Origin: Pseudomonas sp. MYb118
GTDB taxonomy: Bacteria > Pseudomonadota > Gammaproteobacteria > Pseudomonadales > Pseudomonadaceae
Assembly (NCBI RefSeq): GCF_040947875.1
Contig: NZ_JBFRXN010000002.1
Span: forward strand, 2,790,001-2,854,000
DNA length: 64,000 nucleotides
Direction of reading: 5' to 3'
A program made the translations under genes and the position numbers. Positions 1,570 to 47,772 of the stretch are shown piece after piece. Positions within the stretch are counted from its first letter, which is position 1, and every line of letters starts with the position of its first letter. The notes under the pieces were generated by a model. The model was not told the DNA's origin, searched no databases, and saw only the letters and a program-made list of their open reading frames with translations.

Positions 1570-1595
1570 AAGTTCGTTCGATTCTATACGAACTT
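1570..1595. promoter_or_regulatory. candidate operator, perfect inverted repeat in divergent promoter
   Basis: AAGTTCGT at 1570-1577 and ACGAACTT at 1588-1595 form a perfect 8-bp palindrome with a 10-bp AT-rich spacer. It lies 23 bases upstream of the MocR start codon and about 100 bases upstream of the MFS gene. The position and symmetry suit autoregulation by the MocR protein, which is an inference. Confidence 0.55.
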
Positions 1596-1695
1596 ACTCT
1601 GATGAAAACAAACGGCTCTCTCTACCATCACCTCACAGACTACCCAGATTGTCGGCGTTCGTCGCCTGTGCAATCGCTGGTTCCAGAGGTGTTGC

Positions 1696-2796
1696 ATGAG
1701 TGTGCAAACAACGGCCGCCGTCGCCAAGCCGGTGATCAACGTCCGCCTGTTCCTGATCCGGATTATCACCGCCGTGTCGCTGTTCGCGGTGCTGGGCAAG
1801 GCCAACGTGTGGCTGGACACCGCCACCAACAGCATCCTCGCCCTGGGGTACCGGGCCTTGCTGTTGCTCCTGCCGTTGACCTTGCTGGTGCTGGGGCGTC
1901 GCTCCCTGAGCGTTACCTTGTCGTGCGCCGCCCTCGGGCTGGTGCTGCTGGCCGTGACCAGCAACCAGGGCGTGGTGATGTTCGCCGCTGCCTTGTTCGC
2001 CTACGGCATCGCGATTGCCGGTTACCTGATCAAGAGCGAAGCGGCGCAGACCAAGGAAGGGGCTGCCTACAACCGCGTCGCCATGAACATGGGCAGCCTG
2101 CTGGCCGGCCTGATTCTGCTTTCGCCGCTGCTGACTCCCAGCATGTTTTTCCTGGGTGCGGCGGCGTTCGTCCTGCTGTGCCTGCCGATCGCCGCGGGGG
2201 CGACCTTCACCACCCAGCCGGTGACCGCCGCTGCGGTCACCGTTGACGGCAGCGGCTGGCGCAACAAACTGCCGTGGGTGATCGCCGGCGTCATCATGGG
2301 CATCAAGCTGTTCGGTGTGTTTTCGATCCTGCCCCAGGCGATCCTGCGTGAGACCGGCGAGCTGCCGTCCTGGTACGGTTTGATGCTGATCCTCAACAGC
2401 GCGGTGGTGGTCTTCGCCCAGGTGCCGATGATGAAACTGATCGAGCGCACCGGGCGCTTCAAGGTGCTTGCCGTAATCGGCATCATCGCCGGCGGTTTTG
2501 CCGTGCTTTCCTCGCCCGCCGCATTCCACGTGCAGACGCTGGTCGGCGCGCTGATCTGGGTCGCGCTGCTGTCCCTCGCCGAGTGCGCGTTCAGTTACCT
2601 CGACTACTTCTCCGTCAAGCAGAACAACATGTTCATCAAGGAAGTTTCCCTGGGCGTGGGCGCCGGGCTGACCGTGCTGATCATGCGGGTGGTGCCGATG
2701 CCGTACAACGCCCTGTTGCTGGCCGCCATCGGCGCCGCGGGCATCCTGGCGTGGTACTGGTTCAACCGTAAAACCGTTGCATCGCTGCATGACTGA
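1696..2796 (+). CDS. MFS-like transporter of the biosynthesis cluster
   Basis: The 366-residue product is almost wholly hydrophobic, with about 10-12 predicted membrane segments, and looks like a major facilitator-type permease slightly shorter than the usual 400 residues. The start is preceded by an AGAGGTG ribosome site. It is the first gene of the unit running to 5219, followed after 42 bases by the ATP-grasp gene. That context suggests export (self-protection) of the pathway product, although uptake of a precursor is also possible. No substrate-determining motif could be recognised. Confidence 0.75.
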   Translation: MSVQTTAAVAKPVINVRLFLIRIITAVSLFAVLGKANVWLDTATNSILALGYRALLLLLPLTLLVLGRRSLSVTLSCAALGLVLLAVTSNQGVVMFAAALFAYGIAIAGYLIKSEAAQTKEGAAYNRVAMNMGSLLAGLILLSPLLTPSMFFLGAAAFVLLCLPIAAGATFTTQPVTAAAVTVDGSGWRNKLPWVIAGVIMGIKLFGVFSILPQAILRETGELPSWYGLMLILNSAVVVFAQVPMMKLIERTGRFKVLAVIGIIAGGFAVLSSPAAFHVQTLVGALIWVALLSLAECAFSYLDYFSVKQNNMFIKEVSLGVGAGLTVLIMRVVPMPYNALLLAAIGAAGILAWYWFNRKTVASLHD

Positions 2797-2838
2797 TTCA
2801 GCGCGTCTGCGTTTTTCACTCCACAGGTCGGAGGTTTC

Positions 2839-4119
2839 ATGAGTACGACGTCATGCGTAGTAGTGGTCGGGTACAACGGCAACCGGGTGCACGATATCCG
2901 CAAGCTGCGCGACCTTTGCAAGGCACTCTATAACGCCCGGCTGATCCTGGTGGTCGAACAGATCCAGGTCGATGACGACCAGGTGGCGGACCACGTCTGC
3001 ACGGCGTCGATGGCCGTGGAGGACATTGCCGACTCTGTCGATCTGGTGGCCGGCTGCCTCAGTGTCGATCAGTGGAAACTGATCGGCGTGTTGCCGTTTT
3101 CCGACCGTGGCGTGTTGCTGGGTGCCGCGCTGGCGACACACTTCGGCCTGCCAGGGATCAGCCCGGGCCAAGCGCGAGCGGGCCTGGATAAACAGATTTT
3201 TCGCAAACTGGAAGCCAGCGCCGACAGTGCGCCGCCGGACTATCGCCCGGTGTTCTCCGCGCGGATCGAGAGCCTTGGCGAACTGCGTCAGCGGGTGGTC
3301 GAACTGGGCGGAAGGGCCTTCATCAAACCGGCCTGCGAAGGGGCGAGCCGCGGTTGCCGGGTCATCCACCATCCGTCCGAATGCGATGAGGCCTGGCAGG
3401 CGCTCAAGCCGTACCGCGAGGGCGGCATCGTACTCGAGGAGTTGATCCAGAACGCCCGCGAATACAGTTGGGACTACGTCGCCGGCAGCACCTGGGTGAC
3501 CGAGAAAACCACCACCGAGGGCGCTTATCGCGCCGAAATCCAGCAAGTGGTGCCAGCACCGCTGGCCGCTGACGTTCAGGCACGACTGGCGTCTGCCGGC
3601 CAGCATATGGCCGGGCTGGTGTCACTGGACAACGGCGCCTATCACAACGAGGTCTTCCTGCGCAGCGACGGCCTGACCTCGGCGGTGGAAACCAACATGC
3701 GCCCCGGTGGCATGCACATCTGGGACCTGGCGCGGCTGGCCTTCGTCGATTTCGACCCCTGGGAGCGCTGGGTCAGATGGGCCGTGGAGGGGTCGGTCGA
3801 GCCCCACGATCCGGTGGCGCGGGGTTACTGCGGCATCCGCCTGCTGCGGGCGCCGTCGGGTGGTTTATTGCGCGCGGTGCCGGACATCGAAGCGCTGGCC
3901 CGGGAGCTGAACATCGAACTGGTCGAGGCGGTGTACAGCAAACGCCTCAGTGATTCGGTCACGGCGCTGGTCAAGGACAACACCTCGTTCATCGGCCACA
4001 TCGTGCTGTTCAACGAACACTACACGGCACTCAGCGACAACTTGCTGCGCCTCGCCGAGGCCATCGAGTCCCGTGTCGAAGTCACCGCTCTGGCAGCACC
4101 GGCGAGAGCCGTGGGCTGA
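2839..4119 (+). CDS. ATP-grasp domain ligase
   Basis: The 426-residue product has the layout of ATP-grasp carboxylate-amine ligases: an N-terminal Rossmann-like part (VVVVGYNGNR), a central part with FIKPACEGASRGCRVI (ATP-binding lysine, about residues 160-175) and VLEELIQ, and a C-terminal catalytic part with a metal-binding segment around SAVETNMRPGG (about 280-290). Such enzymes activate a carboxylate as acyl phosphate and join it to an amine or thiol. A GGAGG ribosome site precedes the start by 6 bases. With no NRPS in the cluster, this is the best candidate for the amide or peptide bond-forming step. Its substrates are unknown. Confidence 0.85.
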   Translation: MSTTSCVVVVGYNGNRVHDIRKLRDLCKALYNARLILVVEQIQVDDDQVADHVCTASMAVEDIADSVDLVAGCLSVDQWKLIGVLPFSDRGVLLGAALATHFGLPGISPGQARAGLDKQIFRKLEASADSAPPDYRPVFSARIESLGELRQRVVELGGRAFIKPACEGASRGCRVIHHPSECDEAWQALKPYREGGIVLEELIQNAREYSWDYVAGSTWVTEKTTTEGAYRAEIQQVVPAPLAADVQARLASAGQHMAGLVSLDNGAYHNEVFLRSDGLTSAVETNMRPGGMHIWDLARLAFVDFDPWERWVRWAVEGSVEPHDPVARGYCGIRLLRAPSGGLLRAVPDIEALARELNIELVEAVYSKRLSDSVTALVKDNTSFIGHIVLFNEHYTALSDNLLRLAEAIESRVEVTALAAPARAVG

Positions 4120-4168
4120 GCCATTGAGAACGTTTTTCAAGGTTTGTGGGTCAAGGGGATCGGGTTAA

Positions 4169-4669
4169 ATGATTGTGCAGAAAAAGATGTCTTGCGATGA
4201 ACGCTTCATTGCCCTGGCAAAGGAGCTCGACTACGACATTTACGGTGAGAACACCGTTGGCGGGCACTACGCGCCGCTGGTCAGGCATCACGATGAGCTG
4301 TACATCAGCGGCCTGGTGCCGCGCACCAACGGCAGGATCCAGTATCCGGGCCGGGTGGGGCTGGAGCTCGACATGGCGGACGCCCAGGCCGCAGCCAGTA
4401 TCAGTGCCATGCGCGGCCTGGCGCTGATCGTCGATGCCATCGGCTCGCTGGACAAGATCAAATCGCTGATCCGCATCACGGTCTACGTGAAGTGCACCGC
4501 AGACTTTGTTGACCTCAGTGAAGTCGCCAACGGCGCCTCGGACGTCTTCAGTCATGTACTGGGCGATGCCGGAAAACATACCCGCACCACGGTCGGTGTA
4601 TATCAGTTGCCAAAAAATGCGGCCGTCGAAGTTGACATGATTGTGGCGCTGCGGCCTTCGGTCTTATAA
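4169..4669 (+). CDS. RidA/YjgF/YER057c/UK114 family protein
   Basis: The 166-residue product carries the RidA core. Its C-terminal RTTVGVYQLP...AAVEVDMIVAL keeps the ligand-binding arginine (R139) and the conserved glutamate region (E154). RidA proteins hydrolyse reactive enamines or imines, and several family members act as pathway enzymes or condensing catalysts. It is about 35 residues longer than classical RidA, mainly at the N terminus. An alternative start exists at M7. It sits between the ATP-grasp and cupin genes on the same strand, so a role in handling an imine from the cluster's aminotransferase or PLP chemistry is plausible. Confidence 0.85.
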   Translation: MIVQKKMSCDERFIALAKELDYDIYGENTVGGHYAPLVRHHDELYISGLVPRTNGRIQYPGRVGLELDMADAQAAASISAMRGLALIVDAIGSLDKIKSLIRITVYVKCTADFVDLSEVANGASDVFSHVLGDAGKHTRTTVGVYQLPKNAAVEVDMIVALRPSVL

Positions 4670-4751
4670 GAGTTATTTATCTGGCTTTACACTGAACCAT
4701 TGTTTGTCTAATGTTTTGTTACTTGATTGGACGACAGGTCGGTGTTTACAG

Positions 4752-5219
4752 ATGAATAACTTCAAGGGCGGGTATTTTTCATATAAGGATTTTCGTCAGA
4801 GCCTGGGCAATCCACCGGCCAATGCTCAAGTATGGAAGCACAACGAGCTGTCGGACCTGCGCCACAGTCTCGATGCCAGCGAGGTCGATATCGTCTCGCT
4901 GGCTCGTGACAACACTGTCGAAGGCTGCAAGCTGACGCCCGGCATGGCGGTGTCGATGCAGTGGTTGAAGCCCGGTACGACGCTCAATGGCCATGCCCAT
5001 TGCTGGTGGCATCTGTTCATCATCCAGTCCGGCACAGGCGCCTTGACCTTGGGCGAGGCCGATGAAGTCAGCGTCAGCCCCGGTGACGTGCTGCTGGTGC
5101 CGGCCTGGACGCGACACGGTTTCATCAACACCAGCGCCACAGAGCCGCTGGCCATGCTCAACATGAGCAACATGCCGCAGATCGCCCAACTCGCCGGTCC
5201 AGCCGACGCCATCGCCTGA
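4752..5219 (+). CDS. cupin-domain protein with an all-histidine metal motif
   Basis: The 155-residue single-domain cupin begins MNNFKGG. A longer in-frame extension upstream exists but has no ribosome site. Cupin motif 1 reads GHAHCWWHLF: two histidines (H81, H83) are kept, but the usual glutamate position is a histidine (H87). Motif 2 has PAWTRHGFIN with H122. The metal site would thus be four-His rather than the usual three-His/one-Glu, as seen in some cupin oxygenases. It is the last gene before the terminator at 5253. Function is unknown; a mononuclear iron enzyme acting on a pathway intermediate is an inference. Confidence 0.8.
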   Translation: MNNFKGGYFSYKDFRQSLGNPPANAQVWKHNELSDLRHSLDASEVDIVSLARDNTVEGCKLTPGMAVSMQWLKPGTTLNGHAHCWWHLFIIQSGTGALTLGEADEVSVSPGDVLLVPAWTRHGFINTSATEPLAMLNMSNMPQIAQLAGPADAIA

Positions 5220-5252
5220 TTTCACCCCACCCGACGTTACCCCCGCCCCCCC

Positions 5253-5284
5253 AGGGAGTCCGCATTGTGCCGACTCCCTTTTTG
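5253..5284 (+). terminator. rho-independent terminator after the cupin gene
   Basis: GGGAGTC at 5254-5260 pairs with GACTCCC at 5272-5278 and is followed by TTTTT. It separates the cluster into two transcription units. Confidence 0.8.
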
Positions 5285-5298
5285 TTTCCGGTGGCAGT

Positions 5299-5337
5299 TT
5301 TCTGTATCCGTATAAACAGATAATTTCTGTATCTGTT
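5299..5337. promoter_or_regulatory. candidate operator region upstream of the second unit
   Basis: AACAGATA (5315-5322) and TATCTGTT (5330-5337) form a perfect 8-bp inverted repeat with a 7-bp spacer. The word TTTCTGTATC also occurs twice in direct orientation (5299-5308 and 5324-5333). The element lies 72-110 bases upstream of the GST gene, in an AT-rich gap that must hold the promoter of the second unit. Confidence 0.5.
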
Positions 5338-5408
5338 CAGCGTTTAATCATCTAAATACGATCGCTTCTAATGCAACGGATTATTGTGTTGATGCAAGGG
5401 AGCGTTCT

Positions 5409-6056
5409 ATGGAAAGTACCAGGATTGAATTGTATGTCGGTGCTGACTTTGTCAGTGCTTTTGCCATGTCGGCATTTGTGGCGTTAAAGGAAAAGCAACT
5501 TTCTTTTAAACTTGTCACACTGGATTTGAAAGCGCGTGAAAATTATCAAAGTGCATATCGCGATGTTTCGCTGACTTGCAAAATTCCCACGCTGGTCCAT
5601 GAAGGTTTTGCCCTGTCGGAATCTTCGGCCATCGCCGAATACCTGGAAGACCTAGCGCCGGGGCATCCGCATCTGTTCCCCCTGGGCATCCAGCAACGCG
5701 CCCGCGCCCGTCAACTCCAGGCCTGGTTGCGCAGTGATCTGCTGGTGATTCGTAAAGAGCGCCCGGCGGACCTCATCTACTTCGGCAAAAAGAACACGGC
5801 GCTGTCCGACGAAGCCCAGGCTGCGGTGGCCAGGTTGTTCTTCGTTGCCGAGCACCTGCTCGAGGAGGGCGCCGAAAACCTGTTCGGCGACTGGAGCATC
5901 GCCGACACCGACCTGGCAATCATGCTCAACCGCCTGGTGGCCAATGGCGATCCGGTGCCTGAGCGCCTGGTGAAGTACGTGCGTGGGCAGTGGGATCGCG
6001 ACAGTGTCCGGGCGTGGATGGACCTGGAGCGCATCGCGCCCGCCATTGCACCTTGA
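5409..6056 (+). CDS. yfcF: glutathione S-transferase, YfcF-like
   Basis: The 215-residue product has an N-terminal thioredoxin-like GST domain with the glutathione-binding IPTLVHEGFALSESSAIAEYLED segment type (residues about 58-80) and an all-alpha C-terminal domain. The run from LSESSAIAEYLED through ARARQLQAWLRSDL and DWSIADTDLA closely resembles Escherichia coli YfcF as recalled, so the family call is firm. AAGGGAG precedes the start. It opens the second transcription unit, next to the radical SAM gene. It may conjugate or isomerise a pathway intermediate or protect against a reactive product; both are inferences. Confidence 0.85.
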   Translation: MESTRIELYVGADFVSAFAMSAFVALKEKQLSFKLVTLDLKARENYQSAYRDVSLTCKIPTLVHEGFALSESSAIAEYLEDLAPGHPHLFPLGIQQRARARQLQAWLRSDLLVIRKERPADLIYFGKKNTALSDEAQAAVARLFFVAEHLLEEGAENLFGDWSIADTDLAIMLNRLVANGDPVPERLVKYVRGQWDRDSVRAWMDLERIAPAIAP

Positions 6057-6088
6057 TTCCGTGAGGCTTTTACACCAGGAGCGCTGCC

Positions 6089-7429
6089 ATGCAAGGACTG
6101 TCGGAGCAGGAACGTTACAAACCCTACAACTCACGCACCATTCGCGACACGCCGTACTGGCAGAAACTGACACCCGCGTTGCAGGAGGCCATGAACGTGG
6201 TGGCGCGGGTCATGCCGTTTCGCACCAATGAATACGTGCTGGGCCACCTGATCGACTGGGACAACATCCCGAACGACCCGATTTTTCGCCTGACCTTCCC
6301 GCACAAGGACATGTTGCTGGAAGAGGAGTACGCGTCGCTCAAGCAGTTGATCGACTCGGATGATGCCGTCGCCATCAAGCGGCGCATCGAGGCGATCTGG
6401 CTGCGCATGAACCCGCACCCGGCCGGGCAGCTGACGCACAACGCCGCCATCCTCGACGGAAAAGTGCTGCCAGGCTTGCAGCACAAGTACCGAGAGACCG
6501 TGCTGTTTTTCCCCGGTGCCGGTCAGACGTGTCACGCCTACTGCACTTTCTGTTTCCGCTGGGCGCAGTTCATCGGTGAGGAAGAACTCAAGTTCAACGC
6601 TCGGGAATCCCAGGAACTGGTGAATTACCTGCGGGTGCACACCGAGGTCACCGACGTGCTGATCACCGGCGGCGATCCGATGATCATGAACACCCGTTCC
6701 TTGGCGGGGTACATCGAGCCGCTGCTGGCGCTACCACACCTCAAGAGCATCCGTATCGGCACCAAATCGGTGGCGTACTGGCCGCAACGATTTGTCAGCG
6801 ACAAGGATGCGCCGCAGTTGCTGGAGCTGTTCGAGCGGATTGTCGCGGCCGGCAAGCACCTGTCGATCATGGGCCACTACAACCACCCGGTGGAGATCCG
6901 CCAGGCCGTCGCTCGCCAGGCCATCGAACGCATTCGCTCGACCGGCGCGACCCTGCGCATACAGGCGCCGGTGATCCGCCACATCAACGAAGATCCCGCC
7001 GACTGGGCGGCGCTGTGGACCGAGGGCGTGCGGCTCGGGGCGGTTCCGTATTACCTGTTCGTCGAGCGCGACACCGGGCCGAGTCACTACTTCGCGATGC
7101 CGCTGGCGCGGGCTTTCGAGATCTTCCAGGCGGCTTATCGCAGCGTGTCCGGGTTGGCGCGCACGGTGCGCGGGCCGTCGATGAGCACGTTCTACGGCAA
7201 GGTGCTGATCAACGGCATCGAGGTGGTCGCCGGGGAAAAGGTCTTCGTCCTGCAGTTCCTCCAGGCCCGTGATCCGCAATGGGTGTTGCGCACCTTCTAT
7301 GCGCGCTTCGACCCGCATGCCACCTGGTTCGATCAGCTGCGGCCGGCATTTGGCGAAGCGTCGTTCTTCTTTCAACTGCCGCCGGCGAACGCGCCTGAAT
7401 TGATACCGGTCCTGCTCGAAACGGCGTAG
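6089..7429 (+). CDS. KamA-family radical SAM protein (lysine 2,3-aminomutase-like)
   Basis: The 446-residue protein has the radical SAM cluster motif CxxxCxxC at C148, C152 and C155 (CHAYCTFCF), an ITGGDP SAM-binding segment (192-197), and overall similarity to lysine 2,3-aminomutases, including SGLARTVRGP and PYYLFVERD regions. The glycine-rich PGGGGK motif that holds the PLP lysine in classical aminomutases is not present. The equivalent region reads GPSMSTFYGKV, with K371 the only nearby lysine, so aminomutase activity is not assured. An AGGAG ribosome site precedes the start. In context it probably rearranges or otherwise transforms an amino acid precursor. Confidence 0.85.
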   Translation: MQGLSEQERYKPYNSRTIRDTPYWQKLTPALQEAMNVVARVMPFRTNEYVLGHLIDWDNIPNDPIFRLTFPHKDMLLEEEYASLKQLIDSDDAVAIKRRIEAIWLRMNPHPAGQLTHNAAILDGKVLPGLQHKYRETVLFFPGAGQTCHAYCTFCFRWAQFIGEEELKFNARESQELVNYLRVHTEVTDVLITGGDPMIMNTRSLAGYIEPLLALPHLKSIRIGTKSVAYWPQRFVSDKDAPQLLELFERIVAAGKHLSIMGHYNHPVEIRQAVARQAIERIRSTGATLRIQAPVIRHINEDPADWAALWTEGVRLGAVPYYLFVERDTGPSHYFAMPLARAFEIFQAAYRSVSGLARTVRGPSMSTFYGKVLINGIEVVAGEKVFVLQFLQARDPQWVLRTFYARFDPHATWFDQLRPAFGEASFFFQLPPANAPELIPVLLETA

Positions 7430-7453
7430 GACGATTCATCTGGAGATAAGGAC

Positions 7454-8326
7454 ATGAGCAGTATCGGCTTCGATCAGCGGCAAGGTTTCATCTGGCTCGA
7501 CGGCGAGTTCGTCGAGTGGTCCCAGGCCCGGCTGCACGTGCTGACCCACGGTCTGCATTACGCCAGCACCGTGTACGAGGGGGAGCGGGTCTACGGCGGC
7601 AAGGTGTTCAAGTTGCGCGAACACAGCGAGCGGCTGTATCGCTCGGCGCAACTGATGGATTTCGTCATTCCCTTCGAGCGGGCCGAGCTGGAGGCGGCCA
7701 GCCGCGAACTGCTGCAACGCAACAACGTGGTCGACGGTTACCTGCGACCGGTGGCGTGGCGTGGCAGTGAGATGATCTCCACCTCGGCGCGCTTCAACCG
7801 CGTGCATGTGGCGATCGCCTGCTGGCAATGGCCGAGCTACTTCGACCCGGCGGCGCGCATGGCCGGCATTCGCCTGAAAACGGCCGCATGGCGGCGCCCG
7901 CCACCGGACACCAGCCCGTTCCAGGCCAAGGCCTCAGGGCATTACCAGATCGCCACGCTGAGCAAGCACGACGCGGAAAATCACGGCTATCACGATGCGC
8001 TGATGCTCGACTGGCGCGGCCATGTCGCCGAGGCCACCAGCGCCAACGTGTTCTTCGCCAACGGCCGCACGCTGTATACGCCCACGCCCGATTGCTTTCT
8101 CGATGGCATCACCCGCCAGACCGTCATCGAACTGGCCCAGGCACTGGATTACCAAGTGGTCGAACGCACGATCCTGCCCACCGAGCTTGGCGATTTCGAG
8201 GAGTGTTTTCTGACCGGCACCGCCGCCGAAATCACCCCCGTGCAGAGCATCGACCAGCACGGCTATCGACCGGGTAACGCCTGCCGCGACTTCATTGCCG
8301 CTTACACCCAAACCGTTAACGCCTGA
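7454..8326 (+). CDS. class IV aminotransferase, branched-chain (IlvE) type
   Basis: The 290-residue product is a fold-type IV PLP enzyme. K159 in FQAKASGHYQ is the expected Schiff-base lysine, and the later HVAEATSANVFF (E193) matches the E-x-S/T-x-x-N-x-F signature of branched-chain aminotransferases. The length is slightly under the usual 305. It would interconvert a branched-chain or related 2-oxo acid and amino acid. It follows the radical SAM gene by 24 bases, with GGAG/AAGGA before the start. It is probably a pathway-dedicated paralogue rather than the housekeeping IlvE, given its cluster location. Confidence 0.88.
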   Translation: MSSIGFDQRQGFIWLDGEFVEWSQARLHVLTHGLHYASTVYEGERVYGGKVFKLREHSERLYRSAQLMDFVIPFERAELEAASRELLQRNNVVDGYLRPVAWRGSEMISTSARFNRVHVAIACWQWPSYFDPAARMAGIRLKTAAWRRPPPDTSPFQAKASGHYQIATLSKHDAENHGYHDALMLDWRGHVAEATSANVFFANGRTLYTPTPDCFLDGITRQTVIELAQALDYQVVERTILPTELGDFEECFLTGTAAEITPVQSIDQHGYRPGNACRDFIAAYTQTVNA

Positions 8327-8347
8327 TAAACCACCAGGAACACCACC

Positions 8348-9106
8348 ATGTCAGATCAAGGGATTGTTGCGTCTACTCCTTACGTTTCGCTCGGCCATCG
8401 CCATGAGGAATTGGCCTCGCGTGGCTGGACGGTGCTGACCGCCGGCGAATTTGCCTACGACGTCGTCGGCACTTTGCAGGCCTTCGGCCGAATCATTCCG
8501 CAGTTCAACGGGCAAACCGCTTACCCCATCACCCGCAAGCCGGGCTACGAAGCCTTGCCCTATTCCCAGAGCATGAACGGCATTGGCCCACACACCGAAG
8601 CGCCGGTCTACGGGCCGCCGCCGCGTTACCTGGCCTTGCATTGTCATCAACAGGCCACCTGCGGTGGCGGGCATACCGGGCTGGTGGACGGTATCGAGTT
8701 CCTCGCTCATCTGGGACGCACCGAACCTGACTTGCGCGAATGGCTCGAGGAAAACCCCGTGGAGTTCGTGGCCACCGCCAAGCCCGGGGAGGCGGCACAG
8801 ACGCGGGTCAAGGAATACATCCTCACGCCTACGGAAGACGGGGATATTTTCCGCTTCAGCTACAACCAGTTTCACTACGGTGATGTGAACCCTTCCGAGG
8901 CGGACCTGCAGCAATCGAAGGTGGCCAACAGCAACTCGCCGCTGGCCCGCTTCGCCACCCTGGGCGAAGCCTGGTTCGTCGAGCACAACACGCCGGTGTT
9001 GATCCCCGACGGCTGCCTGTTGATCTGGGATAACTGGCGAATGATCCACGCCCGCAGCCGCTACACCGATCCCGGACGCAACCTGACCCGCTACTGGCTG
9101 GCCTGA
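8348..9106 (+). CDS. Fe(II)/2-oxoglutarate oxygenase, TauD / clavaminate synthase-like
   Basis: The 252-residue product has a facial-triad motif H82-x-E84 (GPHTEAP) and distal H234 (MIHARSRY), with R245 or R248 placed to bind 2-oxoglutarate. The HxE form instead of HxD is typical of clavaminate synthase-type members. The segment NGIGPHTEAPVYGPPPRYLALHC also fits that group. It probably hydroxylates, desaturates or cyclises an amino-acid-like substrate. It sits 21 bases after the aminotransferase gene with AGGA before the start. The substrate is not deducible. Confidence 0.85.
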   Translation: MSDQGIVASTPYVSLGHRHEELASRGWTVLTAGEFAYDVVGTLQAFGRIIPQFNGQTAYPITRKPGYEALPYSQSMNGIGPHTEAPVYGPPPRYLALHCHQQATCGGGHTGLVDGIEFLAHLGRTEPDLREWLEENPVEFVATAKPGEAAQTRVKEYILTPTEDGDIFRFSYNQFHYGDVNPSEADLQQSKVANSNSPLARFATLGEAWFVEHNTPVLIPDGCLLIWDNWRMIHARSRYTDPGRNLTRYWLA

Positions 9107-9132
9107 TTCATTCGTCTTTCCTTTTCCCTTGC

Positions 9133-9154
9133 GCGTACCCCTCGGCGGGTACGC
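9133..9154 (+). other. perfect intra-operon hairpin
   Basis: GCGTACCC (9133-9140) and GGGTACGC (9147-9154) form a perfect 8-bp stem with a 6-base loop in the 67-bp gap between the 2-oxoglutarate oxygenase and AurF-type genes. No T run follows, so it is more likely an mRNA-stability or processing element than a terminator. Confidence 0.5.
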
Positions 9155-9173
9155 GTCCTACAGGTATCGCGTC

Positions 9174-10133
9174 ATGCAAACAGCAATCGAGATCGCCAAG
9201 GTCGATCATCAACTGGTGGTACGCCTCAACCAGGCCTGGACTAAACGGGCTACGGTGTGCTCGCCGGACAAGGCCCAGGTCAACGAAACATTCGACCCGG
9301 CACGCCCGGATTACCCGGAGTGCATGGTGCCGTTTTTCCATCACCCGAAATTCCAGGCCCTGGACGCCGAGCTGAAAAGCAGCGTCGTGACCTGGGGCTG
9401 GATCGGCTACAACCTGCGCACGGTGACCGCCGAAGAACATGTGGTGAACCCGGCCCTGAGCGTCATTGCCAACCAGTACCTGGGCAAGGACCACTGGCAT
9501 TTTCGCGAGGCGATGCAGCAGACGCTGATCGACGAGCACTACCACACGTTGATGCACCTGCGTGCCATCGAGCGCACCCGCGAAGATCGCGCCCTCGATC
9601 AGGACCTGGACCTACCGCCCTCCGTCACCTACCTGCGCCTGATCGCCTTGCAGGAAACCCTGGCGCAACAGTGGCAGCGTGACCTGGCGGCGATCACCTT
9701 CGCGGTGGTGGCCGAGATCAGCGTCAATGCCTACCTGGACCTGCTGGCCGACGACCAGACCATCCAGCCACAGAACCGTCGGGTCGCCGAACTGCACAAC
9801 CGTGATGAATATGCCCACAGCAAGGTGCTCGCGGAGGTGGCGAAAGTGATGTACGCCGGCATGTCGCCGGAGCGCCGGGCGTTTTTCACACAGACCTTGT
9901 CGGTAGCGCTGAGCGCATTCGTGGCCCAGGACTACTCGATGTGGGAAGCCATTCTGACCCAGCTCGGGGTCGAGGACGCAGCGGTGATCATTGCCGACAC
10001 CCGCGAGAGCAACCGCAACGCGACGATCATGCGCGACTACAGCGGCTTGCATCGACTGGCCGAAGACCTGGGCATCAGCGAGCAGATCGACTTCGACTTC
10101 CGCCCGACCCTCAAACCGGCTGCCGTGGCCTGA
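9174..10133 (+). CDS. AurF-family diiron N-oxygenase
   Basis: The 319-residue product shows the ligand pattern of p-aminobenzoate N-oxygenase AurF: a glutamate in TAEEHV (E87/E88), ExxH in EHYH (E121, H124), E181 in AEISVNAY, and HxxxExxH in HNRDEYAH (H208, E212, H215). All seven diiron ligands appear to be present. AurF-type enzymes oxidise amines to hydroxylamines or nitro groups, and relatives act in the chloramphenicol, fragin and valdiazen pathways. ATG at 9174 is chosen because it has an AGG ribosome site and removes an unlikely 15-residue extension. The enzyme marks the cluster as one with N-oxygenation chemistry. Confidence 0.85.
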   Translation: MQTAIEIAKVDHQLVVRLNQAWTKRATVCSPDKAQVNETFDPARPDYPECMVPFFHHPKFQALDAELKSSVVTWGWIGYNLRTVTAEEHVVNPALSVIANQYLGKDHWHFREAMQQTLIDEHYHTLMHLRAIERTREDRALDQDLDLPPSVTYLRLIALQETLAQQWQRDLAAITFAVVAEISVNAYLDLLADDQTIQPQNRRVAELHNRDEYAHSKVLAEVAKVMYAGMSPERRAFFTQTLSVALSAFVAQDYSMWEAILTQLGVEDAAVIIADTRESNRNATIMRDYSGLHRLAEDLGISEQIDFDFRPTLKPAAVA

Positions 10134-10146
10134 TCAGGAGATGAAC

Positions 10147-10950
10147 ATGTCCGTTCCTGCGTACGAAGTATTTGCCATCCGTGTGGGCGCCAATGCCCAG
10201 CGCACGGCGCGGGAGAACTTTCTCTACGACGCCTGTTGCGGCGATCCGAACGCGTCGATGCCGCTGGATTATTACTTCTGGGTGATTCGCCACGAGCAGC
10301 AGGTCATCGTGGTCGACACCTGTTTTCAACCGGCCACAGCCGACCGGCGCAACCGCCAGATGTACTGCTTGCCGGAACAATCCCTGCGCCAGCTGGACGT
10401 TGATCCCGCACGGGTCGAGAACCTGATCCTCACCCATCTGCACTGGGACCATGCCGGCAACCTGGGCTTGTTCCCCCGTGCCACGGTGCATTTGCAGGAA
10501 GCCGAACTGCGCTTCTGCACCGGCCCGAAAATGGCCCATCGCACGGTGAACAAAACCTACGAGGTCGAGGACGTGATGTCGGCGCTGCCACCGCTGTTCG
10601 AAGGGCGCCTGCGTTTGCACGGCGGCGCGGTCGAAGTGGCGCCGGGCGTGACCTTGCACCCGGTGGGCGGCCATACACCGGGCAGCCAGGTGGTGCGGGT
10701 CCACACGGCGCGCGGGTGGATCGTCCTGGCCTCGGATGCTGCGCACCTGTGGGCCAACATCCGCGAGCGCAGCCCGTTCCCGATCCTCGATGACCTGGCG
10801 CAGACGCTGGAAGCCTTCAGCCTGATCAATGAACTCGCCGACGGCCCGGACCACGTCATCCCCGGCCACGACCCGCTGATCGCCGAGCGTTTCCCGCATT
10901 GGAACGATGATCCGCACATTATCTGCCTGCACCAACCCCCTGCGTCGTAG
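10147..10950 (+). CDS. metallo-beta-lactamase-fold hydrolase, AHL lactonase-like
   Basis: The 267-residue product has HLHWDHAGN (the HxHxDH dinuclear zinc motif, about residues 98-106), a later GGHTPGS histidine and a downstream DAAH plus PGHDP. This arrangement matches the N-acyl homoserine lactonase (AiiA/AttM) branch of the metallo-beta-lactamase fold. AGGAG at 10136-10140 favours the ATG at 10147 over the one at 10141. It is the last gene of the second unit, only 13 bases after the N-oxygenase gene. It may hydrolyse an ester, lactone or thioester intermediate; true quorum quenching is less likely in this context. Confidence 0.85.
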   Translation: MSVPAYEVFAIRVGANAQRTARENFLYDACCGDPNASMPLDYYFWVIRHEQQVIVVDTCFQPATADRRNRQMYCLPEQSLRQLDVDPARVENLILTHLHWDHAGNLGLFPRATVHLQEAELRFCTGPKMAHRTVNKTYEVEDVMSALPPLFEGRLRLHGGAVEVAPGVTLHPVGGHTPGSQVVRVHTARGWIVLASDAAHLWANIRERSPFPILDDLAQTLEAFSLINELADGPDHVIPGHDPLIAERFPHWNDDPHIICLHQPPAS

Positions 10951-10960: not shown

Positions 10961-11049
10961 CTGTAGGAGCGAGCTTGCTCGCGATGCGGAGTGTCAGCCG
11001 ACGCATTTGTATCTGACACACCGCATCGCGAGCAAGCTCGCTCCTACAG
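10961..11049. repeat. REP doublet (inverted pair)
   Basis: CTGTAGGAGCGAGCTTGCTC at 10961 and its reverse complement ending at 11049 flank a short spacer that is itself partly palindromic. It lies between two convergent genes, a usual place for Pseudomonas REP elements. Confidence 0.9.
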
Positions 11050-11058
11050 GGTAAGGTG

Positions 11059-12486
11059 TTAGACCTGCGCCTTAAGCAACCCCCCCAACCTCGCCAGCGC
11101 CTCATCAATCTTCGGCGAATACGGCATCCCGCAGCCGATCCGCACAAAATGATTGAAGCGCGGGCTGTTGGAAAAGATATCCCCAGGCGAAATCTGGATG
11201 CCCACCTGCAGCGCCTCATGGAACAACCGTATCGACGAACAATGGGGCGGCAGTTCCACCCACAACAACGTCCCGCCCCGAGGCTCGCTGACGCTGGTAC
11301 CCACCGGGAAGTAGCGGGTGATCGACTCACTCATCTGCTGGCGTTGGTGTGTCAGGGTTTTCCTCAAACGGCGCAGGTAACGTTCGTAGGACGGGGTTTT
11401 CATGAACTCGCTCACCGCCATTTGCGACATCACTTCGCAGCCCCTGGACTGGGCATGTTTGAGCATCGCCACGCGCTCGTGCCATTTCCCAGCACTGATC
11501 CAGCCCAGGCGTATGCCCGGTGCCAGGGTTTTGTTCAGCGATGCGCAATGGATCACGTTGTCGCTGAGGTCCCAATGTTTGAGCGTGGACAGCGGCTGTT
11601 CGATGTCCACCAGATCCCCATAGGTGTCGTCTTCGATCAGCACCGTGCCGTGTTCGGCGCACAGTTGCACCAGTCGGGCCTTGTTGGCATCCGGCATGAT
11701 GCTGCCCAGCGGATTTTGCAGGTTGGGCATGACGATCAGCGCCTGGATGGCTTCCGGGCCTTGCAGCAGTTGCTCGAGGGCCAGCAGGTTGATGCCGGCC
11801 TGGGCCGTCGCCGGCACTTCCCGGGTACGCAGGTGCAGGCTTTCGAGAATCTGCAGGAGCCCGTAGAAGGTCGGGGATTCCACGGCCACGGTGTCGCCCG
11901 GTTGAGTGACCGCACGCAGCGCCAGCGTCAGGGCTTCGGTGGCGCCGTGGGTGATGACGATTTTTTCTGCCGGCAGTTGCGTCTTGGCCGCCAGTGCCCG
12001 GCGAGCCAGCAGGTTGCGCAACGCCAGGCAGCCGTTTGTCGAGCCTTCGGCATCGAGCAAATGCGCGTCCCGGCGCAAAGCCTTGGCCATGTGATCTTGC
12101 AGGGTCTTCAACGGGTAGAGCGACGGTGCGCAGTAGGCACTGGCCAGGTTGACCCGGATCGCCGCGCGTTGTCCGGCCGTGAGTACCGAGGAAATGGGAG
12201 GGTGAAGGCCGAGGTAGACGCTGGTGTCGAAGGGCGGGGGAGTGAGGGGAACCGGTTTGGGCGCAGTGTCGGGCAGGCGAATGTAGTTGCCGGAGCGCGG
12301 TCGGGCTTCAAGGACGCCGCAGTCCTCGAGCTCGCGACAAACCTGCACGGCGGTGGACAGGCTGACCGCGTGTTTCTCCATCATCAGCCTGATCGAGGGG
12401 AAACGTTCACCGGTTTTCAAGGTACCGCTGCGGATCGCGTCGAGGTAGTGGTTGGCCAACTGACGGTACAGGGGAAGCGTGTGCAT
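11059..12486 (-). CDS. MocR/GntR-family regulator, second copy
   Basis: The 475-residue product has an N-terminal winged helix (about residues 5-70, GERFPSIRLMMEKHAVS) and an aminotransferase-like domain with the PLP lysine at K319 (ASLNKTLAPGIRLGW). It differs clearly from the MocR at 138-1547. Its promoter faces the terminator at 12644, not a divergent gene, so its target is not evident from position. Such proteins often regulate amino acid, PLP or transporter genes. It is convergent with the biosynthesis cluster and separated from it by a REP doublet, so a link to that pathway is not supported. Confidence 0.88.
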   Translation of the reverse strand: MHTLPLYRQLANHYLDAIRSGTLKTGERFPSIRLMMEKHAVSLSTAVQVCRELEDCGVLEARPRSGNYIRLPDTAPKPVPLTPPPFDTSVYLGLHPPISSVLTAGQRAAIRVNLASAYCAPSLYPLKTLQDHMAKALRRDAHLLDAEGSTNGCLALRNLLARRALAAKTQLPAEKIVITHGATEALTLALRAVTQPGDTVAVESPTFYGLLQILESLHLRTREVPATAQAGINLLALEQLLQGPEAIQALIVMPNLQNPLGSIMPDANKARLVQLCAEHGTVLIEDDTYGDLVDIEQPLSTLKHWDLSDNVIHCASLNKTLAPGIRLGWISAGKWHERVAMLKHAQSRGCEVMSQMAVSEFMKTPSYERYLRRLRKTLTHQRQQMSESITRYFPVGTSVSEPRGGTLLWVELPPHCSSIRLFHEALQVGIQISPGDIFSNSPRFNHFVRIGCGMPYSPKIDEALARLGGLLKAQV

Positions 12487-12699: not shown

Positions 12700-13404
12700 T
12701 TATTGCGCGGCGATGCTGTAGCCGTCGAAGGCTGTCTGCTGTTGAAGCGCGGTGATGATGTTCTTGCGATTGACCGCCTGTTCGGTACCGGCATTGTCCA
12801 GGAAGGTCTCGCTTTCCAGCTCCGCTTCATCGCCTTCGCCAACGAAGGCAAAACCCAGGAACTCCAGCGCTTCACGGTCAACGCTCAGGCGCGAACGCGG
12901 CGTGCGCAGCGGCAGGGTGACGCTCACGCCATCCTTGCTGATGGTGAACACTTCGGCTTCTTTCTTGGCGCGGGCGGCCTTGCCCTTGCCACCGCCAGGA
13001 TTGCTGATGGCCTGATGGGTCTGGTTCAGCACTTTCAGCGCCAGGCCGTAGACGATTTCCTGGAAGGCCGGGTCGTCCTTGAAGCTGGACAGGATGCGAC
13101 TGATCGGGAACCGGCTGCTCAGGTCTTCCAGCGCCGCGGTGTCGGCGGCTTCGGCGTCCTTGAGCTGCTTGAGCTGGCCCATCAGTTCGTAGGCGGTATC
13201 GTCATCAAAGCGGTCATGCGCCTGGCGGATCGCGGCACGCAGCTCGCGGATCTGCTCGCTTTCCCGGGTGGACTGGAAAGCGTCCAGCACCATCTCGCTG
13301 ATGGTTTTGGCCTGGGACACATGTTGTGAAAGATTGATGGAGTTTTCGTATTCCGCTTTGGACGACAGGGTGACTACGGATTCAGCGGTATTGGAATCGG
13401 ACAT
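12700..13404 (-). CDS. conserved-looking hypothetical protein, 234 residues
   Basis: I do not recognise the family. The product starts MSDSNTAESV at 13404; a 32-residue upstream extension is rejected as basic and repeat-free with no ribosome site. The N-terminal half is acidic and helical with coiled-coil-like stretches (residues 15-100). A Gly/Lys/Arg/Ala linker GGGKGKAARAKKE follows, then a beta-rich C-terminal part (FTISKDGVSVTLPL, SRLSVDREALEFLGFAF). There is no signal peptide or membrane segment. It is a single-gene unit with its own terminator. Codon use resembles its neighbours, so it does not look recently acquired. Confidence 0.7.
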   Translation of the reverse strand: MSDSNTAESVVTLSSKAEYENSINLSQHVSQAKTISEMVLDAFQSTRESEQIRELRAAIRQAHDRFDDDTAYELMGQLKQLKDAEAADTAALEDLSSRFPISRILSSFKDDPAFQEIVYGLALKVLNQTHQAISNPGGGKGKAARAKKEAEVFTISKDGVSVTLPLRTPRSRLSVDREALEFLGFAFVGEGDEAELESETFLDNAGTEQAVNRKNIITALQQQTAFDGYSIAAQ

Positions 13405-13501
13405 TGAAATTTCACTACTTTTTTCAGCTTGAATAGAGACGAGAAAGCGCGGGGGCTTTTTCCGGCCGACTAGCCTATTGGACAGAGGCGGGGTTGTCAC
13501 C

Positions 13502-37664: not shown

Positions 37665-38280
37665 TGGACACCTCCGCAGATGCAGGGGTGGTGGGGGAGG
37701 GTGGAACGTGGACGGGAGAGCCAGATTACAGACGGATTTGTACTGCACATAGTGAAGCTCCTTAATTTCAAGAGCCGCCACAATTCGTTACCAAGCGAAT
37801 GGGTGGCAGCTGTGCGCAGGTTGGTAAACCGGGAAATCAAGGAAACCGGCACGTCCGAAGACGTCCCACGCACAGCCGCCATAACGCAGATCGCAGGCGA
37901 AAAAAAGCGCCTGCGAACGCAGAGCACTGTTGCGCAGTGATTTACCTCGGGTTACCAAGCCCGGCCGCTGAATTGGCAGCGACGTAAGGAGGTTATCGCC
38001 CGGAAGGCTTTCCCGCAACCGTCAGCATTACGGGTGATAAATCAGCCCTTCGCCGGAAAAACTCAGAGGAATCAAGGCACAACAGCACTTCTGTAGGCAT
38101 GCGGGTGTATATCACGAAAACCATTGAAACAAACCTCTGTCAGGTGGCAACACTTTGCCTCTGCCGGCAAATCGCTGCACCTAACCCCCCAGCTAATCAG
38201 CAAACACCCCGCAAAACAGCGCTCAAACCAATTGGCCTGCCTTTTGCTCAACCGCTCATTAACCACAAAGGAGCGGCAAA
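37665..38280. other. gene-poor region at the island's left edge
   Basis: This gap of about 615 bp has no frame with a ribosome site and protein-like composition. Its right end (from about 38190) resembles the sequence before the degenerate gene copy at 44820, so the duplicated segment begins here. Confidence 0.5.
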
Positions 38281-38700
38281 ATGATCGGAAGCAACCTCCC
38301 CATGCTGGACTACGTCAAAGAGTTCAGAAAGTCACTGGAAAACGGCACAGTAAAGACCGCCCGATTCGTGCTCGACAACGCGACCCCGGAAATCCAGGCA
38401 AAGCTCGATCAGCGATTCGTCCAGGACGAGATAGATTTAAAACAGCTGATAAAACACCATCAGGCGAATCCAAGCTGGGCAACGTTCGATGACCAGAACA
38501 ATTCCGTCGAATTCCCGGATGTGCAGTCCCTCAGCAAGAGCGATGCGTCGCACATACTGAGTGGCCTAAAACACCTGATGGACATCGGGCGTTTGGATGG
38601 CAAAACCGTCAACGCTACGAATGGCGGTCTGTCGACTAACGACGTAGCGGACTATAAAGACTGGTTGTTGGCTCGTATGGGGGTGGATGAAACGGCGTAA
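38281..38700 (+). CDS. hypothetical protein, duplicated at both island ends
   Basis: The 139-residue product (MIGSNLPMLDYVKEFRKSLENG...) is soluble, with no signal peptide and no recognised domain. The N-terminal half is helical, and the C-terminal half has SLSKSDASHILSGLKHLMDIG and TNDVADYKDWLLARMG. GGAG lies before the ATG. A second, degenerate copy lies at 44884-45301 in the same orientation. Its function is unknown; the duplication suggests it was carried or copied with the island. Confidence 0.7.
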   Translation: MIGSNLPMLDYVKEFRKSLENGTVKTARFVLDNATPEIQAKLDQRFVQDEIDLKQLIKHHQANPSWATFDDQNNSVEFPDVQSLSKSDASHILSGLKHLMDIGRLDGKTVNATNGGLSTNDVADYKDWLLARMGVDETA

Positions 38701-38828
38701 GCCCCGAGGCAGAAGCCAATCATCAAAGTAAACGGACGCTTTCGAGCCTTCAGTTTCGTTGTCAGTTCGCTTTCACTAAGCGCCCGGACTGGCCTTGGGT
38801 CAATTCAAACAGGAAAAGGTGTGACGAC

Positions 38829-39251
38829 ATGGCGGCAGATATAGCCTGTCCTGTGATTCTGCGTTCTCGTGAAACTCTGGAAGTCCTGGCGTTTGAGCAC
38901 CCGTTAGCCGGCCTGCAACTGGTCAAAGGCAGTGTGGGGCCCGGTGAGTCAACCGACATGGCTGCCGTGCGAGAGCTCATGGAAGAAGCTGGGATTCAAT
39001 CCGAGGTATTGAGAAATTTGGGTGAGTGGCGTGCCATGGAAACGGGGCACACGTGGGCATTTCATGAATGCCATGTTGCCCTAGACCTTCCCGATACTTG
39101 GGTGCATTTTGCCAACGATGATGGAGGCCATGAATTCAGGTTTTTTTGGCATCCACTGATGAGTGAGCCTACTGAAAAATGGCATCAGGTTTTCAAGGAT
39201 GCTTTGAGTTTTCTCAGGTCTTCCATTGCTGATGATTTTCATCGAGATTGA
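38829..39251 (+). CDS. NUDIX hydrolase
   Basis: The 140-residue product has a complete Nudix box: GSVGPGE, seven residues, then RELMEEAGI (about residues 39-62, consensus Gx5Ex7REUxEExGU). The family hydrolyses nucleoside diphosphates linked to another moiety. It is tentatively a single gene at the left part of the island, followed by a weak hairpin. A standalone Nudix enzyme next to defence genes could clean up modified nucleotides, but a link is not shown. Confidence 0.88.
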   Translation: MAADIACPVILRSRETLEVLAFEHPLAGLQLVKGSVGPGESTDMAAVRELMEEAGIQSEVLRNLGEWRAMETGHTWAFHECHVALDLPDTWVHFANDDGGHEFRFFWHPLMSEPTEKWHQVFKDALSFLRSSIADDFHRD

Positions 39252-39731
39252 ATGGAAAACTGAATAAAAAATCGGACGCAAAAAGCCGGCCCAACTGGCC
39301 GATTTGTTCATTGCAAAAGCCTAGAGCTAGGACGTGAGGCTGCGACTCCGTCTAACATCCCGCGCCGAAGGTAACCACATAAAAAACCTCAAAATTTTCA
39401 GCGTCATGCGCCCATAAGTCGAAATCATACTAAAGGATGATGATGTGTAGTGGACGGCGAGATGGCAAAATAGTAGCTTCATGGTGGAGCGCTTTTATCG
39501 GTGTTGATCTATGAGTTCCATTTGCATTTCGTGAAGGAAGACGGCATGCGTGCTTACCCCCTCTTAGCCTGTATTGACGTACTTCTAGATATTGAAATTG
39601 TCGAAAATAGTACGCGTAACGAATTCTCGGGAATGCTTATAACTCGAACGGAAAACTATAATTTAGGTTTTTCAATCTCTAGGCATATAAAATTTAGATT
39701 AAGGTGAAGTTTCAAGGAGGAGTGTGTTGCC
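39252..39731. other. AT-rich gap before the Hachiman operon
   Basis: A weak hairpin (AAATCGG...CCGATTT with a GGCC core) at about 39276-39306 may end the NUDIX transcript. A 68-codon GTG-start frame at 39501-39707 is open but has no ribosome site or recognisable domain. The 3' end has AAGGAGG serving hamA. The promoter of the defence operon should be here. Confidence 0.5.

Positions 39732-45592: not shown

Positions 45593-47772
<2,180 letters not shown>

Follow-up and report, generated by a model that had tools for sequence, protein, structure and literature searches.

Gene content and conservation of the locus

The window (the whole stretch of 64,000 nucleotides that was analysed) contains a set of ten genes on the plus strand, flanked by two genes for MocR/GabR-type regulators on the minus strand. 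The first regulator (positions 138 to 1547) was recognised by its GntR and Aminotran_1_2 domains in Pfam, the second (11059 to 12486) by Pfam and synteny. The first unit of the cluster encodes a small multi-pass membrane protein of 366 amino acids (1696 to 2796), an ATP-grasp ligase (2839 to 4119), a RidA/YjgF protein (4169 to 4669) and a four-His cupin (4752 to 5219, ATG at 4752). It is closed on the plus strand by a hairpin with a T run (5253 to 5284) that resembled an intrinsic terminator when read by eye and folded, and that was missed by the consensus terminator scan. Consensus scans yielded 2 promoters versus 2.4 in shuffled sequences and 13 terminators versus 9.7 (standard deviation 3.7), and thus no more than expected by chance. 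The remaining genes encode a YfcF-type glutathione S-transferase (5409 to 6056), a KamA-family radical SAM aminomutase (6089 to 7429), a class IV aminotransferase of the branched-chain type (7454 to 8326), a TauD-family Fe(II)/2-oxoglutarate oxygenase (8348 to 9106), an AurF-family diiron N-oxygenase (9174 to 10133, ATG at 9174) and a hydrolase of the metallo-beta-lactamase (MBL) fold (10147 to 10950, ATG at 10147). Every gene named in the original prediction is an open reading frame at these positions. The cluster is also free of NRPS genes, as had been claimed: its longest assigned gene encodes 475 amino acids in the ORF list, and Pfam detected no NRPS domain in the ten proteins.

Most of the predicted family labels were borne out by profile searches. 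Scores above the Pfam cut-offs were obtained for the RidA protein, a predicted imine/enamine deaminase (YjgF/RidA, 48.6 bits), the cupin (Cupin_2, 48.6 bits), the glutathione S-transferase (GST_C_4, 141.6 bits), the aminotransferase (Aminotran_4, 174.6 bits) and the MBL protein with its HLHWDH motif (Lactamase_B, 73.3 bits). The transferase and the aminotransferase also passed the NCBIfam models PRK15113 of the YfcF type (295 bits, cut-off 150) and PRK07544 (465 bits, cut-off 396). Among NCBIfam models the MBL protein best resembled lactonases, with scores below their cut-offs. The TauD protein reached 61.4 bits against PF02668 (cut-off 27); its iron triad, H82-T-E84 and H234, was invariant in 7 of 7 sequences, in agreement with the predicted HxE oxygenase, and its closest solved relatives are gamma-butyrobetaine dioxygenases. 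Likewise, the four cupin histidines H81, H83, H87 and H122 were invariant in all 24 aligned sequences (23 of the 64 extracted cupins and the window's own). The ATP-grasp and KamA labels were supported only below curated cut-offs, and the MFS label matched no profile. Against Pfam ATP-grasp_4 the ligase scored 24.7 bits (cut-off 27), below but recognisable, and its NCBIfam matches were weak as well. A dipeptide ligase is predicted from its family alignment (30 of at least 120 listed homologues) and from BacD, its sole PDB relative at E≤1e-3, a weak match over part of the fold (E 9e-5). For the membrane protein, a likely exporter kept by 55 of the 56 Pseudomonas loci, neither a Pfam or NCBIfam match nor a PDB relative at E≤10 was found; the designation MFS is nevertheless plausible, because its 20 raw hydropathy peaks were merged by eye to about 11 to 12 helices.

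In all but one of 56 Pseudomonas loci the ten genes stood together in identical order (hits by tblastn at E≤1e-10 with more than 50% identity), beyond what chance would give and as would be expected of the predicted cluster. The sole exception is a contig of 3,972 bases, and in a few loci (L029, L076 and L082) single genes matched piecewise. The first MocR gene adjoins the cluster in 55 of the 56 loci and the second in 52, the remaining four ending before it. The originally proposed extent of 1570 to 10950 thus holds for the ten genes, while the conserved block also takes in the second MocR gene. AurF was present at 78% identity or more in 38 of 398 sampled Pseudomonas genomes, about one in ten. 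The cluster occupies a fixed chromosomal site. The comparison of gaps at empty sites started from 64 genomes with the right-flank gene, nine of which were excluded because cyoE was distant or on another contig (G020, G021, G022, G026, G035, G050, G068, G085 and G115; G021 has the cluster).

Outside Pseudomonas, the core of KamA, aminotransferase, TauD and AurF recurs in Trinickia/Paraburkholderia, in Amantichitinum and in actinobacteria. Relatives of the second MocR lie beside the cluster in Amantichitinum (52%) and Trinickia (44%), while the first MocR had only matches of 23 to 25% in five Trinickia/Paraburkholderia/Amantichitinum loci, at the place of the second. The relatives contain additional genes. 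One encodes an Ldh_2 dehydrogenase; a single locus has a gene like that for L-2-hydroxyglutarate oxidase, and actinobacterial loci have one resembling DgcA/L-Ala-D/L-Glu epimerase. Each label denotes the closest NCBIfam model, none of them above its cut-off. The ATP-grasp ligase had no match in three Trinickia/Paraburkholderia genomes and therefore stands outside the core. The predicted amide bond is reasonable, since BacD, the one structure related to the ligase at E≤1e-3, is itself a dipeptide ligase, but it does not belong to the core chemistry.

The KamA-type protein and the probable nitrogen-oxidising enzymes

The KamA protein carries the CxxxCxxC motif (C148, C152 and C155) and a lysine, K371, which from its equal spacing to K337 of 2A5H we take to be the PLP lysine, the two features expected of a radical SAM aminomutase. 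These residues and R327 were invariant in 13 of 13 aligned sequences; nine of at least 120 listed homologues were used, and in the homologue searches for KamA and for the ATP-grasp ligase scoring was confined to the 8000 candidates with the most words in common. The protein scored 139 bits against the KamA family TIGR00238 (cut-off 199) and a recognisable 21.1 bits against Pfam Radical_SAM (cut-off 29.5). The glutamate 2,3-aminomutase model TIGR04368 failed as a direct identifier (100 bits, cut-off 650), and no score exceeded the NCBIfam models for lysine, arginine or EpmB. In glutamate 2,3-aminomutases a basic residue replaces Asp293 of lysine 2,3-aminomutase (LAM) and no acid stands at Asp330. 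Both aspartates bind lysine in LAM, whose numbering beyond 321 is assumed here. The profile alignment to 2A5H placed R327 at Asp293 without a gap, and S364 lies at the place of Asp330 by equal spacing, whereas in the single-sequence alignment E326 and not R327 falls at Asp293. Glutamate is the predicted substrate of KamA and a likely precursor of the cluster product.

The AurF protein was clearly assigned to its family, with 152.7 bits against PF11583 (cut-off 29.6) and PDB matches to 5hyg (E 8e-66) and 3chh (E 1.5e-63). The seven positions that we take to be the diiron ligands were invariant in 19 of 19 aligned sequences, chosen from at least 119 listed homologues, which upholds the predicted diiron enzyme. 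The AurF enzymes characterised to date are known to use aromatic amines; against the 4-aminobenzoate N-oxygenase model NF045603 the protein scored 251.5 bits (cut-off 620).

All 19 KamA genes compared share the signature ERDTG...RGPxMS, and they lie beside AurF (10), a flavoprotein (6), AsnB (2) or a PKS (1). In six Streptomyces loci AurF is replaced by a flavoprotein resembling aspartate N-hydroxylase; the protein of L136 matched the L-aspartate N-hydroxylase 8CP2 with E 2e-65, and the other five were found by tblastn at 58 to 91% identity. Three of the six contain a second flavoprotein gene, of which the only copy compared (L131) scored 624 bits against 8CP2. Because the same KamA type thus pairs elsewhere with an unrelated N-hydroxylase-like protein, the predicted oxidised nitrogen in the product is the best reading. 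In 295 Streptomyces genomes the KamA type was much commoner than AurF (56 versus 16 genomes). Twenty of the 58 listed places, chosen across the score range and not randomly, had KamA flanks with AurF (3), the flavoprotein (6), a PKS (1) or other or unrecognised genes (10). Two of five KamA-AurF neighbour pairs are not independent, since G403 and G406 were reached via known cluster loci. In the PKS genome (L140/L157) the genes immediately before KamA encode an AMP ligase and a PLP enzyme of PF00155, and the PKS gene is about 14 kb away. A third N-oxygenase was sought in the KamA-AsnB loci (L013/L014), where the 225-residue candidate appeared by eye to be a membrane protein and had no informative PDB match.

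Proposed pathway and alternative readings

We put at just short of an even chance that the cluster serves to produce and export a small amino acid or dipeptide derived from glutamate, with an oxidised nitrogen, nitro or hydroxylamino, at C3. KamA would turn L-glutamate into beta-glutamate by shifting the alpha-amine to C3. The freed C2 would be hydroxylated by the TauD enzyme, a predicted C2 hydroxylase, and the alcohol oxidised to a ketone; Ldh_2 would do this where present, and in the window either TauD would act a second time or a dehydrogenase encoded elsewhere would serve. The class IV aminotransferase would re-aminate C2, AurF would oxidise the C3 amine before or after this step, and the ATP-grasp ligase would couple the resulting compound with a further amino acid. 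RidA, the glutathione S-transferase and the MBL protein may serve protection or tailoring, the membrane protein export and both MocR proteins regulation. The product is perhaps a nitropeptin-like peptide of 3-nitro- or 3-hydroxylamino-glutamate. This scheme was built on the families, catalytic motifs, synteny and co-occurrence observed; substrate, reactions, order and product are predicted from them. Several points go beyond the original prediction: glutamate as the likely precursor, the second regulator, a step for which the dehydrogenase is missing, a wider distribution and a fixed place in the chromosome.

The additional genes of the relatives (Ldh_2, L-2-hydroxyglutarate oxidase and DgcA/epimerase types) share a glutamate theme and support the pathway. 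Further points in its favour are R327 in the profile alignment, the incednine-like genes near the one PKS, the kept AurF ligand positions, the pairing of KamA with the flavoprotein and the relationship of the ligase to BacD. Against it stand the large distance of KamA from TIGR04368, the E326 alignment, the lack of a ligase in some relatives and the many other contexts of KamA. So do the aromatic substrates of known AurF enzymes, the failure of L-glutamate to stimulate 8CP2 and the lack of observed in vitro activity of IdnL4, the KamA-family enzyme of incednine biosynthesis. KamA, aminotransferase and TauD were all absent from 5 of 19 non-proteobacterial AurF loci, and in Nocardiopsis (L093) no KamA adjoins the AurF cluster, the one KamA lying elsewhere in the genome. 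The window's cluster also lacks Ldh_2, which was found in only 3 of the 56 Pseudomonas loci. The two Ldh_2 proteins from the window's own genome were not accepted as the missing dehydrogenase, having only 28 to 33% identity to the cluster type.

A bolder version is rather doubtful as a whole: KamA and AurF would jointly build 3-nitroglutamate, an aliphatic beta-nitro amino acid exported as a dipeptide, by a nitropeptin-like antimetabolite route common to Pseudomonas, Betaproteobacteria and actinobacteria. Nitrogen shift to C3, oxidation and re-amination of C2 would form one conserved programme, with two unrelated N-oxygenase types recruited to the same KamA type. If the proposed pathway is right, it would supply the genes behind a class of N-oxidised glutamate antimetabolites that is as yet unexplored. 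AurF chemistry would then include an aliphatic amine, and KamA and AurF would be small testable enzymes. Since AurF occurs in a tenth of the sampled Pseudomonas genomes and the whole cluster in nearly all named loci, the cluster may shape competition in the habitats of these bacteria.

It is unlikely that AurF halts at the hydroxylamine, the product then being 3-(hydroxyamino)glutamate or an isoxazolidinone ring closed by the ATP-grasp enzyme and opened by the MBL protein for self-protection. The lactonase-like MBL protein, which lies beside KamA in proteobacterial AurF, flavoprotein and AsnB contexts, suits such a role, and ring closure on an N-O group by an ATP-grasp enzyme has a precedent in cycloserine. 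However, tblastn detected no MBL gene in any of 22 AurF loci from actinobacteria or myxobacteria, the dipeptide ligase relationship points away from ring closure, and some AurF clusters have no ligase. Formation of an N-N bond (hydrazine, N-nitroso or diazeniumdiolate) is improbable. In SznF a cupin acts after the N-oxygenase in N-N bond formation, and the four-His cupin occurs in all five betaproteobacterial loci and in 55 of the 56 from Pseudomonas. Half of the six Streptomyces relatives have the second flavoprotein, and a report on 8CP2 describes that family as a source of nitrous acid for N-N bonds (PMC10404684). Neither a cupin nor such a flavoprotein was detected by tblastn in the same 22 loci, and by Pfam none of the window's ten proteins is a flavoprotein of this kind or resembles an aminoacyl-tRNA synthetase. 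N-N chemistry, one of the forms originally envisaged for the oxidised nitrogen, is not required because these loci do without a detectable cupin.

Negamycin and sperabillin are hydroxylated beta-amino acid amides, and a product of this kind would be expected if KamA acted on lysine or another amino acid. Membership of the KamA family permits it, and TauD and the ATP-grasp enzyme suit it. This reading was ranked second because the profile alignment shows other residues at the places of the acids that bind lysine in LAM, the single-sequence alignment being less clear, and we hold it to be improbable: no lysine, arginine or EpmB model was passed, though neither was the glutamate model, and the relatives contain hydroxyglutarate- and glutamate-type enzymes. 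A catabolic or detoxifying cluster is very improbable, for although glutathione S-transferases, RidA, MBL proteins and cupins occur in degradation pathways and an 'aminobenzoate oxygenase' is counted with the degradation genes in one published genome (PMC4505138), KamA, N-oxygenase, ligase and likely exporter occur together here, and ligase, epimerase-like and FemAB-like genes are present among the relatives.

Comparison with known systems

No pathway with this gene set was recognised in the open-licence literature, mostly judged by title and start of the abstract, with most subscription papers outside the search; this agrees with the original prediction. In incednine biosynthesis, according to the published report (PMC11284099), beta-glutamate is an intermediate, idnL4 was disrupted, and activity of IdnL4 was not observed in vitro. 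IdnL4, a KamA-family radical SAM enzyme, is likewise predicted to supply beta-glutamate for a natural product, and a similar gene set lies near the one PKS relative. By contrast, the window's cluster has no PKS, its KamA is far below TIGR04368, and beta-glutamate would be N-oxidised and re-aminated. The L-aspartate N-hydroxylase 8CP2 (FzmM/CreE type) carries out the same kind of N-oxidation, its substrate too being an acidic amino acid, and yields nitrosuccinate, with no stimulation by L-glutamate (PMC10404684); this protein is unrelated to AurF and does not occur in the window.

The arylamine N-oxygenases AurF and CmlI belong to one family with the window's enzyme, which agrees with them at each of the seven diiron ligand positions but has an aliphatic amine as its predicted substrate. 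BacD of bacilysin and other dipeptide antibiotics made by ATP-grasp enzymes follow the same NRPS-free dipeptide logic, although the match is partial and the warhead enzymes are different. Fragin, leudiazen and pvf-type diazeniumdiolate clusters are also small-molecule clusters of Pseudomonas and Burkholderia with an AurF-like N-oxygenase, but they are built round an NRPS. For nitropeptin of Streptomyces xanthochromogenes no gene cluster was found in the open-licence literature. Nitropeptin reportedly contains a 3-nitroglutamate residue, and it combines a dipeptide with a nitro group, as predicted for the product of this cluster.

Conservation of the cluster in Pseudomonas

The cluster is real and conserved. 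All genes named in the original prediction were present in the ORF listing of the window, which belongs to a 6.58-Mb, four-contig genome; close homologues bear names that point to the genus Pseudomonas. The families assigned to the genes are in line with Pfam and NCBIfam, except for the membrane protein at 1696-2796, for which searches of Pfam, NCBIfam and the PDB gave no match. The ATP-grasp and KamA proteins were recognisable as members of their families at scores under the curated cut-offs. The genes form two compact units, MFS-ATP-grasp-RidA-cupin and GST-KamA-AT4-TauD-AurF-MBL (AT4, class IV aminotransferase; MBL, metallo-beta-lactamase-fold hydrolase). Between the units, at 5253-5284, a hairpin with a T run was read and folded that is missing from the consensus terminator scan. 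A second MocR-type gene, MocR2 (11059-12486), is part of the conserved block.

A long inverted repeat (10963-11050, fold of -82 kcal/mol) lies between MBL and MocR2. Its 20-base core occurs in the window in 24 copies at no more than 2 mismatches, many of them as inverted pairs, as in Pseudomonas repeat elements. At 38001-46000 the GC content is 0.41-0.50, compared with about 0.6 around it, and a tRNA-Leu is located at 45401-45485; this region looks like an acquired island.

Scanning one genome per species with an AurF alignment matched 234 stretches, 205 of which encode a relative; the best 80 of these 205 were kept. Among them were 56 Pseudomonas loci, of which 55 carried the complete ten-gene run (MFS to MBL) in unchanged order, with single genes matching piecewise in a few; the remaining locus was a contig of 3,972 bases. 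MocR was found in 55 and MocR2 in 52 of the 56, and in the four loci lacking MocR2 the contig stops right after MBL. A dehydrogenase gene (Ldh_2) lies between KamA and AT4 in three of the 56 (P. gingeri/fuscovaginae; 334 bits in Pfam for P. gingeri), while the spacing is 26-49 bases in those Pseudomonas loci of the best 80 that hold both genes and no Ldh_2. Within the genus, 398 sampled genomes were queried with AurF: 44 matched at E<=1e-30, 38 of these at an identity of at least 78%, one of the 38 (G315) as two pieces. The KamA query matched 16 of 149 genomes, ten of them at 81% identity or more. The original prediction named no described pathway with this gene set, and as far as literature searches reach the cluster is undescribed.

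Chromosomal site and probable loss

The flanks were compared with those of three AurF-bearing genomes (G128, G129 and G261). All share the left-flank genes up to one that we take to be cyoE and, on the right, a 266-aa gene at 12700-13500. The latter was present in 64 of 119 genomes, nine of which were left out of the count of flank-to-flank gaps. In genomes with the cluster the gap was 12.9-14.0 kb (five genomes) or 26 kb (G044); in 46 that lack it the median was 1.56 kb (range 0.13-9.3 kb). Odd gaps were seen in G083 (19.2 kb), G070 (12.5 kb) and G006 (9.2 kb). The approximately 19 kb between the right-flank gene and cyoE in G083 (locus L172) were searched for cluster genes, and none was detected.

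G070, G006, G141 and G333 (L168-L171) contain MocR at 71-72% followed by a single chimeric frame, in which the start of ATP-grasp is fused to the second half of AurF. The frame is open in all four genomes and has 227-236 codons between stops; the four ligand positions of the AurF half, from first to fourth, are lost in four, four, one and three of the four frames. It reads as the relic of an internal deletion common to four species, and the cluster would therefore also have been lost at the same chromosomal site.

Relatives outside Pseudomonas

KamA, AT4, TauD, AurF, MBL, GST and cupin are retained in Trinickia/Paraburkholderia (L022-L024, L078) and Amantichitinum (L047), and Ldh_2 was found in all five betaproteobacterial loci among the best 80 of 205. 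RidA was not detected in L022-L024, L078 and L047. At E<=1e-8 the window-type ATP-grasp gave no hit in three of these genomes (L022, L023, L078) and a single hit, at 50%, in that of Amantichitinum.

The rest of the best 80 are 19 loci of actinobacteria and Corallococcus (L083-L101). TauD adjoins AurF in 14 and KamA adjoins AurF in 13 of these. The order TauD-AurF-KamA-epimerase-Ldh_2-ATP-grasp-FemAB-AT4 was found in 12 of the 14, the exceptions being L093, with no KamA at the locus, and L089, a 3.4-kb contig. Five of the 19 have AurF without KamA, AT4 or TauD nearby. L093 and L084 come from genomes that encode a KamA of the cluster type elsewhere; the L086 and L098 genomes have weak relatives only, and a KamA search of the L092 and L101 genomes found none. 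A tblastn search of 22 loci, these 19 plus L137-L139, detected none of the following: cupin, MBL, GST, RidA, the MFS of the window, and the flavoprotein described below.

Among 295 Streptomyces genomes, KamA relatives were found in 56 and AurF relatives in 16. By printed coordinates the two genes are no more than about 110 bases apart in 5 of the 16, including two (G403, G406) that were already known to have the pair; three further genomes have both, distant or on separate contigs. Twenty fetched KamA flanks comprised three AurF clusters, six of a flavoprotein type, one PKS case and ten other or unrecognised contexts. The six (L131-L136) have KamA-MBL-flavoprotein-cupin without AurF, TauD and AT4, and are a second, uncharacterised cluster type. 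Some have an MFS gene nearby.

Predicted product and known systems

The product is best read as an amino acid or dipeptide derived from glutamate and N-oxidised at C3; we give this reading almost even chances, slightly lowered because 10 of the 20 KamA flanks fetched show contexts that have nothing to do with it. The window AurF aligns almost end to end with AurF and 5hyg, and seven ligand positions are kept in 19 of 19 AurF-family sequences. The flavoprotein of L136 matched the L-aspartate N-hydroxylase 8CP2 over its full length (E 2e-65); a second gene of this type is present in three of the six, and the L131 copy, the sole one compared, gave 624 bits. Among the indirect signs that a KamA product is N-oxidised, the strongest is the presence of two unrelated N-oxygenase types beside one KamA type. 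The 8CP2 enzyme converts aspartate to nitrosuccinate, and L-glutamate does not stimulate it (PMC10404684).

KamA retains the CxxxCxxC cysteines and the lysine presumed to hold PLP. The profile alignment with lysine 2,3-aminomutase 2A5H places its invariant R327 at Asp293, the residue that binds the lysine side chain, whereas a gapped single-sequence alignment sets E326 there; because the two disagree, the evidence from this position is only suggestive. Like R327, the relatives' accessory enzymes would favour glutamate as precursor. Their closest NCBIfam models, all under cut-off, were sulfolactate/ureidoglycolate dehydrogenase for Ldh_2, DgcA/L-Ala-D/L-Glu epimerase for an enolase-superfamily gene in L090, and L-2-hydroxyglutarate oxidase for the gene directly after MBL in L047, at this one locus. 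L015 and L016 have, at most 10 kb from the ERDTG-type KamA, a further KamA-family gene that keeps Asp at the Asp293 place. In two Pseudomonas genomes (L013, L014) KamA-MBL lies beside genes for an asparagine-synthase-like amidotransferase, an MFS protein and a membrane protein.

In the Streptomyces PKS case, a KamA with the signature of the cluster type has genes for an AMP ligase and a PF00155 enzyme as neighbours, and a PKS gene lies about 14 kb away. This set resembles the incednine route, which passes through beta-glutamate, although no activity of IdnL4 was observed in vitro (PMC11284099).

A PDB search with a profile of 31 ligases gave BacD, the alanine-anticapsin ligase, as the sole match (9e-5), over part of the fold. 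The predicted dipeptide would fit this match, and the dipeptide reading is tempered by the ligation step missing from some relatives. Nitropeptin contains 3-nitroglutamate; for the present cluster, a product that is precisely a 3-nitroglutamate dipeptide is rather improbable.
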